A stretch of 64,000 bases of DNA from Verrucomicrobiota bacterium (GTDB lineage: Bacteria > Verrucomicrobiota > Kiritimatiellia > CAJWTS01). Made by a program: the position numbers and the translations under genes. Shown here piece by piece: positions 18,201 through 19,549 of the stretch. The stretch's first letter is position 1; each line of letters starts with the position of its first letter. Under the pieces are notes generated by a model that saw only the letters and a program-made list of their open reading frames with translations, was not told where the DNA came from and made no database searches. The stretch spans positions 1 through 64,000 of the forward strand of contig JAQBYD010000005.1 of assembly GCA_027623315.1 (NCBI GenBank), in the 5' to 3' direction.

Positions 18201-18586
18201 TCCCCGATCCATGCGCGGAGCGCTACCGGGGTTTCTTCAGCTCGACGCGCTCCGCGGGGATTCGCGATACAGAAAGTGCGACCGGAAAACCAATCGCACT
18301 CTCCGCATCCCCAATCCACGCGCGGAGCGCTACCGGGGTTTCAGCTCGACGCGCTCCGCGGGGATTCGCGATACAGAAAGTGCGACCAGAAACCCAATCG
18401 CACTCTCCGGATCCCCAATCCACGCGCGGAGCGCTACCGGGGTTTCAGCTTGACGCGCTCCGCGGGGATTCGCGATACAGAAAGTGCGACCTGCGTCCGA
18501 TCGCACTCTCTGAATCCCAAATCCTGCGGAGCAGCGGACGACCGGGGAAGCGCTCCGCGCGTGGATTGGGGAGCCGGAGAGTGCGA
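18201..18586. repeat. Palindromic repeat array: three ~103-107-bp direct units plus one inverted-type unit
   Basis: Units at 18201, 18308 and 18412, each tccccaatccacgcgcggagcgctaccggggtttcagctcgacgcgctccgcggggattcgcgatacagaaagtgcgac...tcgcactctccg; last unit ends ggattggggagccggagagtgcga at 18586. Confidence 0.92.
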
Positions 18587-18596
18587 TTGGGATGCC

Positions 18597-19370
18597 TTAA
18601 CTCAGGCTGCTCGATAGGGCGAGGAGCATAGACACGATCTCTTCTAGGTGGCACTTTCCTTGGGCCGCCGTTGCCGGAGAAATCGTCGATCTGGTCAGCA
18701 TCAGATCCAGACTTGTAGCGGCTTGCAGGCCTGAAGCCTGCGCGATCTCCAGAAAGCGAATTCGATCGGTCACGGAGAACTTCCCGTTGCCTTCCGCGAT
18801 GTTCAACACGATGCTCGTGCACTGGCGGTCGAGGTCCCGGCCGCGCGTCATTCCTACTGGTTCTGATTGCAGGAGAGCCGCGCTCCAGCTGACGAAGCGC
18901 AGTGCTGATTGGAATACCTGCAGCTTTTCGTGGGCAAAGATAAATTGTGAACCCGCATCATCGGATGCGCCATACGGCGCTGACGCTTCGCGCGCCTGCA
19001 TCCCTTCGGCGCCTCGGAGACCAATCACCGTCGCGACTACCCGATCGAGGAGCGTTTTCCCTTCGAGAACGCGGCCCGGTTCAATGAGCCTCCAACACGC
19101 AAGCACGTCCAAGCATGCCGCACACTCAAGTGCCGACCCGTACGATATATCGAAGGTTTGTGCCCGATCCGGTCCCTTCGGTTTCGCATTGGCGCGGACG
19201 ATATTGCGAGAGATGCTCTCAGAAGCGCGAAGCAGGTGGTCGCGCGCGGAAATCGCGGGTTGCAAGCCCTGAAGCCATGGCGCCGACCATCCGACAAACT
19301 CAAGAGAGGACTGATAGGCATCGAGTTTCTCGTGATTAAACCAAGTCTCGGGCGGGACGTCAGGAGGCAT
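18597..19370 (-). CDS. Tandem-duplicated four-helix-bundle (S23/IVP-like) protein
   Basis: 257 aa with two homologous halves: FNHEKLDAYQSSLEFVGWSAPWLQG...SISRNIVRANAK...ALECAACLDVL and FAHEKLQVFQSALRFVSWSAALLQS...SIVLNIAEGNGKFSVTDRIRFLEIAQASGLQAATSLDLM. Confidence 0.8.
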   Translation of the reverse strand: MPPDVPPETWFNHEKLDAYQSSLEFVGWSAPWLQGLQPAISARDHLLRASESISRNIVRANAKPKGPDRAQTFDISYGSALECAACLDVLACWRLIEPGRVLEGKTLLDRVVATVIGLRGAEGMQAREASAPYGASDDAGSQFIFAHEKLQVFQSALRFVSWSAALLQSEPVGMTRGRDLDRQCTSIVLNIAEGNGKFSVTDRIRFLEIAQASGLQAATSLDLMLTRSTISPATAAQGKCHLEEIVSMLLALSSSLS

Positions 19371-19409
19371 TGTCTAAGCCTATGTCCCGTGGCTCTTCTC
19401 GGCAAGTCG

Positions 19410-19549
19410 GATCACGCTCCCCGAATTTCGAATCCTGCAGCTTGCCCACCGAAGCAATCCCGCGGCCGCGGGAGCGTAGGAGGGAGCAGCGGAGCAGCGG
19501 ACAACCGGGGAAGCGCTCCGCGCGTAGATTGGGGATCCGGAGAGTGCGA
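19410..19549. repeat. Second locus of the palindromic repeat family
   Basis: 19489-19549 matches 18526-18586 at 58 of 61 positions by eye; 19440-19487 matches 46742-46789 (gcttgccc(a/t)ccgaagcaatcccgcggccgcgggagcgtaggagggagc). Confidence 0.88.

Follow-up and report, generated by a model that had tools for sequence, protein, structure and literature searches.

In REP systems, Y1/RAYT transposase genes are known to lie between inverted repeats. Avd, a protein of diversity-generating retroelements, is a four-helix bundle related to the S23/IVP proteins (chain 8ub7_B). The S23 open reading frame itself is known from the intervening sequences (IVS) of 23S rRNA, where it sits within an inverted repeat, as in Coxiella burnetii, whose IVS has a 28-bp terminal stem around the S23 ORF; the origin of these sequences has been called unclear (PMC4990558). 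Heptameric tandem repeats have been described in Xanthomonas and Nostoc, and paired inverted heptamer arrays have been reported in Xanthomonas (PMC4692102). These repeats, and the cyanobacterial STRRs, are arrays of the same kind as the arms that we describe here around IVP genes, and both GGGAATC and AGTAGGG/AGTGGGG arrays were found as IVP-gene arms. We found no paper in the open-licence literature linking IVP to tandem arrays, which is no proof of novelty.

The locus from which we started lies in a stretch of 64,000 nucleotides from a Verrucomicrobiota bacterium (contig JAQBYD010000005.1), referred to below as the window. Like the 23S rRNA IVS, IVP elements consist of an S23/IVP ORF in a long-stem inverted repeat, with a sporadic distribution and suspected mobility, and the window gene is likewise enclosed by inverted repeats (18398-18444 and 19503-19549). 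However, the IVS sit in rRNA, whereas the window element is intergenic and no rRNA match was found within the window. Two further differences from the IVS are that IVP elements usually have short tandem arrays as arms, the period of which depends on the protein, and that they form presence/absence pairs in protein-coding operons. With REP/RAYT systems they share a single gene between inverted hairpin repeats, accompanied by dispersed gene-less copies; the window genome has about 10 sites with gene-less palindromic copies. Unlike RAYT, IVP has no Y1 domain, and IVP arms are mostly tandem arrays of 6, 7, or 12 nt. Unlike Avd, the window gene stands alone between arrays, and a Pfam scan of the six ORFs around it found no reverse transcriptase domain.

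The double IVP gene of the window and its repeats

The window gene (18597-19370, minus strand) encodes a protein of 257 aa that the original prediction had described as two homologous halves. Profile matches confirmed this. PF05635 matched the protein twice, one stretch per half, with an E value of 3e-23 for the whole protein and a score of 82.5 bits against a curated cut-off of 33.8, and TIGR02436 matched both halves (67.6 bits; cut-off, 24). PF05635 was the only family found in the gene by the Pfam scan, which detected no Y1 (HUH) transposase domain. In an AlphaFold model with a mean pLDDT of 82.8, the protein forms two four-helix bundles with a loose linker, bundle 1 spanning residues 13-130 (helices 13-35, 41-62, 67-92, and 98-130) and bundle 2 spanning residues 147-256 (helices 147-169, 175-195, 200-226, and 232-256). 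The best PDB matches of the model were the S23/IVP structures 2gsc and 2rld (target-normalised TM, 0.8-0.9), and Foldseek also found Avd, chain 8ub7_B of a diversity-generating retroelement RNP, in keeping with the predicted double S23/IVP bundle and its kinship to the Avd fold. Judging from the profiles and the model, the window protein carries the S23/IVP four-helix-bundle domain twice, as a tandem duplication. Elsewhere in the window, nucleoside diphosphate kinase (PF00334) matched three stretches of a 388-aa ORF (21105-22271), a multi-domain layout that is unusual.

Palindromic repeats flank the gene on both sides. A complete near-palindromic unit forming a long hairpin (18497-18590) begins 6 bp past the IVP stop codon, and a tandem-repeat scan detected, downstream (3') of the gene, an array of the palindromic repeat with a 104-bp period and 3.1 copies (18199-18524). 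Upstream (5'), from 37 bp ahead of the IVP start codon, lies a near-palindromic second copy of the hairpin unit (19408-19554), with a further palindrome nested inside it as an insert. The units at the gene are thus ~94-147 bp long. The fold of the downstream unit was strong (-60.7 kcal/mol; z, -6.65) and that of the upstream unit weaker (z, -1.4). Two 61-bp stretches on the plus strand, 18526-18586 and 19489-19549, had been noted as near-identical direct repeats with 3 mismatches, and so they proved to be (95% identity, 963 bp apart), but each is the right-hand part of one of the longer near-palindromes. Because the units are near-palindromic, they match in inverted as well as in direct orientation, over 51 nt at 92% and over 47 nt at 91%. 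The 47-nt match pairs a 3'-side inverted arm (18398-18444, plus strand) with a 5'-side inverted arm (19503-19549, minus strand).

To score such pairing, we took 350 bp on either side of a gene and aligned the piece before it locally with the reverse complement of the piece after it. The window gene reached an inverted-flank score of 37.5, which ranked 6th among 200 IVP genes and was attained by none of 529 control ORFs. Its flanks contained no short-period (12-13-nt) tandem array.

The window palindrome family is found at about 11 places genome-wide, among them a gene-less cluster at 46410-46738 of the window that was located by repeat scans. An IVP gene is present only at the window site, the remaining IVP genes of this genome are situated away from palindrome-family sites, and several of the gene-less copies start right after stop codons. 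The family was absent from 56 relatives, and the repeat pattern had no match in a collection of genome contigs; the double IVP protein or a relative was present in 28 of 57 genomes, the window genome included. The expectation that this repeat family would be enriched beside S23-like genes therefore failed, with one IVP site, about 10 gene-less ones, and none in the 56 relatives. No empty site corresponding to the window copy was found; in the sole genome of the same family, the search did not detect the ACT-domain neighbour gene. A second intergenic palindrome, CCGAAGCAATCCCGCGGCCGCGGGAGCGTAGGAGGGAGC, occurs at 19441-19488 and 46743-46790, nested in or adjoining the first family, and palindromes of this type were also seen at three other loci (L016, L021, and L007). 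Intergenic repeats in the window genome are mosaics.

Inverted arms and repeat periods of IVP genes

At other IVP loci, tandem-repeat scans detected arrays on both sides of the gene that were inverted with respect to each other. An inverted-flank score of at least 18 was reached by 43% of 125 IVP genes from the class of the window genome but by only 1.3% of the 529 control ORFs (Mann-Whitney, 1e-39), the controls being long ORFs of the same loci rather than curated genes; direct orientation was enriched only slightly in this set. A scan of 84,980 species, one genome each, yielded a second set from many phyla (Bacteroidota, Firmicutes, Verrucomicrobia, Planctomycetes, Acidobacteria, Chloroflexi, Proteobacteria, and candidate phyla). 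At the same threshold, 37.5% of its 80 IVP genes and 1% of 102 controls had inverted arms (3e-15), and this set showed no enrichment of direct repeats. The loci of both sets were chosen for their IVP genes, and phylogenetic dependence was only partly controlled. Inverted arms were present at all 8 cyanobacterial plasmid IVP loci, near-identical pairs included (scores, 21-31). When flanks were swapped among IVP genes, the rate of matching arms collapsed from 48% to 0.65% (n = 200), so that an arm matches its partner at the same locus; this control also ruled out array composition alone as a source of chance matches. Wide intergenic spacing was likewise ruled out as a confounder, since controls with gaps of at least 100 bp on both sides still gave 1.6%. 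About half of the IVP genes were without strong arms at the threshold used, and in none of 20 such loci was the IVP gene within rRNA. In viral contigs, single IVPs were found at 38 loci and double IVPs at none.

Inverted pairs enclosing a loop of 250-1500 bp numbered 103 in 1.63 Mb of sequence, and 63 of them had an IVP gene inside. The remainder hold Y1/RAYT transposases, GxxExxY nuclease-fold proteins, a GIY-YIG protein, and ordinary genes. Since RAYT, GxxExxY, and GIY-YIG genes also occur singly within inverted repeats, the arms are possibly not specific to IVP. The Y1/RAYT genes with inverted repeats around them are at L300:741-1268, L207:3257-3778 and 8402-8971, L114:10713-11417, and L206:3938-4900. 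Those for GxxExxY (PF13366, PD-(D/E)XK fold) and GIY-YIG proteins, at L129:14811-15260, L296:3612-4028, L186:3427-3819, and L122:14419-15102, are possibly further one-gene elements of the IVP type.

The period of the arms depends on the protein that they enclose. Around single-domain IVPs, it was 7 or 14 nt in 146 flanks and 12 nt in 1, with some flanks at 8 nt, whereas around double IVPs it was 12 nt in 10 flanks and 7 nt in none (Fisher, 6e-15). An enlarged set of 52 doubles gave 60 flanks, 43 with a period of 12 nt and 17 with a period of 13 nt. The double subfamily also contains half-size proteins, and all 20 of these had inverted arms, with a period of 6 nt in 27 flanks and 12 nt in 6 (Fisher, 6e-18). 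Domain number is therefore separable from ancestry, and shared ancestry alone was ruled out as the origin of the 12-nt period. A tree of the IVP halves indicated a single ancient duplication.

Two motifs, NIAEGNG and GSALECAACLD, are invariant in the half-size proteins. The C half of the doubles has kept the first of these (N190, E193, and G196 in 51/51) and lost the glutamate of the second, while the N half has kept the second (S79, E82, and D88 in 51/51) and lost the glutamate of the first. The motifs are thus split between the two halves, so that one complete motif set corresponds to each repeat unit, every 6 nt for half-size proteins and every 12 nt for doubles. We infer that the period of the array is the spacing of the functional sites of an oligomer, with one site per protomer. 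The sequence of the arms follows the protein as well: among doubles, arm similarity tracked protein identity (0/2000 permutations), and similar arms were found in 66% of pairs at 50-80% protein identity but in 0-5% of less related pairs.

Gain and loss as a block, and gene-less copies

Array, gene, and array have been gained or lost as one block in two cyanobacterial plasmid loci. On plasmid pNe_5 of Nostoc edaphicum, an IVP gene lies between nrdB and nrdA, flanked by AGTAGGG-type arrays at one end and by CCCTACT arrays at the other; in Calothrix NIES-4105, the same nrdB-nrdA pair, about 85% identical to that of N. edaphicum, is separated by only a 40-bp gap. Anabaena sp. 90 has an IVP gene with GGTGACA-type arrays between cas6 and cas4. 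The flanks in Dolichospermum UHCC 0315A are nearly identical to these, and its cas6-cas4 gap is without IVP and has another insert instead. The cas6-cas4 gap is 23 bp in Nostoc UHCC 0302. In Pseudanabaena galeata it holds a separate IVP element, and in P. ABRG5-3 it is 36 bp. No target-site duplication was recognised at IVP elements. The Dolichospermum insert (L327:1574-1818) is an unrelated inverted-repeat sequence of ~245 bp. On plasmids 1 and 2 of Calothrix brevissima NIES-22 (L316 and L317), the same heptamer-armed IVP gene stands beside the same phage-integrase gene; these two copies are a shared block and not independent insertions.

Repeats of the arm type also occur without a gene. Two other IVP loci of the window genome have 12-mers that recur at many gene-less sites in that genome, with 45 and 71 matches versus 1 and 1 for reversed controls. 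These 12-mers often form inverted pairs, with a spacing of about 15 bp or of 150-185 bp, and the window palindrome family is distributed like these dispersed 12-mers. The window itself has a gene-less heptamer hairpin (48640-48780) in which a GAAGTGAGAAGTAGTTAGTC-type array (48659-48719) and its inverted partner TTCTGACTACTCAC (48729-48764) are ~10 nt apart; single IVP genes are surrounded by arrays of this type, of which the hairpin seems to be a gene-less copy. Unpaired heptamer arrays of the AGTGGGG and GTGGCGA types are present in the window at 15026-15097 and 22282-22320, AGTGGGG being also a unit of the N. edaphicum nrdB-nrdA element.

A proposed one-gene element and its alternatives

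Our conclusion is that the arrays are the ends, and the free-standing IVP gene the coding part, of a minimal mobile element. The window locus is probably a diverged member of this widespread class, in which an S23/IVP gene lies between inverted arms. It is a variant or decayed copy, because palindromes of ~94 bp take the place of 12-mer arrays in its arms. An IVP oligomer (a pentameric ring in 2gsc) would bind the array in the form of RNA or single-stranded DNA, each repeat unit being matched by one functional site. By recognising the ends of its own element, IVP would mark both the element and its gene-less copies in trans for mobilisation, the mobilising enzyme being encoded outside the element. 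The 23S rRNA IVS may be copies of the same element class that have inserted into hairpin loops of rRNA.

No catalytic domain was recognised in IVP, which would fit a role as passenger or accessory. The arrays would then be MITE- or REP-like ends moved in trans by an unrelated Y1/RAYT transposase or a reverse transcriptase, and IVP would at most steady the hairpin nucleic acid, as Avd, its structural neighbour, does in retroelement complexes. RAYT, GxxExxY, and GIY-YIG genes likewise lie between inverted repeats, and as regards the moving enzyme this explanation is compatible with the mobile element proposed above. However, both the unit length and the sequence of the arms vary with the IVP protein, which is not expected of a pure passenger, and we regard that role as somewhat unlikely. 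Alternatively, IVP might bind the repeats in its own transcript, the arrays serving autoregulation or RNA stability and driving no movement. On the coding strand, 80% of 5' arrays are rich in purines and 77% of 3' arrays in pyrimidines, so that the transcript strand matters, and the arms are close to the gene, with loops of ~380 bp for singles and ~775-860 bp for doubles. Yet array, gene, and array come and go as a block, and gene-less inverted copies are dispersed, neither of which favours regulation as the sole function; we consider it unlikely.

Two further explanations concern the window locus. The gene could have come by chance to lie between two ordinary REP-like intergenic palindromes that favour spots behind stop codons: about 10 further copies have no IVP gene, several of them follow directly on stop codons, the upstream copy itself (19408-19554) lies ~17 bp past the stop codon of the ACT-domain gene, and 12-mer arrays are absent from the window. 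For ~11 clusters in a genome of 3.9 Mb, however, we estimate the probability of flanking on both sides at roughly 1e-5 if placement is independent, and no control ORF attained the score of the window gene; chance placement is accordingly improbable. The original prediction had seen an excisable cassette between the two 61-bp direct repeats. Its idea of gene and repeats as a cassette was partly upheld, in that IVP genes and repeats are associated far above chance and that occupied and empty sites form pairs in relatives. The 61-bp copies, for all their 95% identity, are pieces of palindromic units, and IVP genes generally lie between inverted and not direct repeats. Excision between the direct repeats was therefore rejected as the main anatomy, and we think it very improbable at the window gene.

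The function and origin of S23/IVP and of the rRNA IVS, like the origin of the bacterial heptameric repeats, have been a question for decades, and the quantitative link between unit length and bundle number ties the two subjects together. We give an even chance to the broadest form of the proposal, in which S23/IVP proteins are molecular rulers (ring oligomers with a site per protomer and 6-7 nt per bundle) that together with the arrays make up an undescribed class of minimal mobile element, the source of the rRNA IVS and of at least part of the bacterial heptameric repeats. The period rule makes the questions about S23/IVP and about the heptamer repeats directly testable by binding assays. 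If true, the proposal would add a class of mobile elements that spans many phyla, each element having a single gene and no recognised transposase, and would give a role to a family annotated en masse just as "four helix bundle protein."
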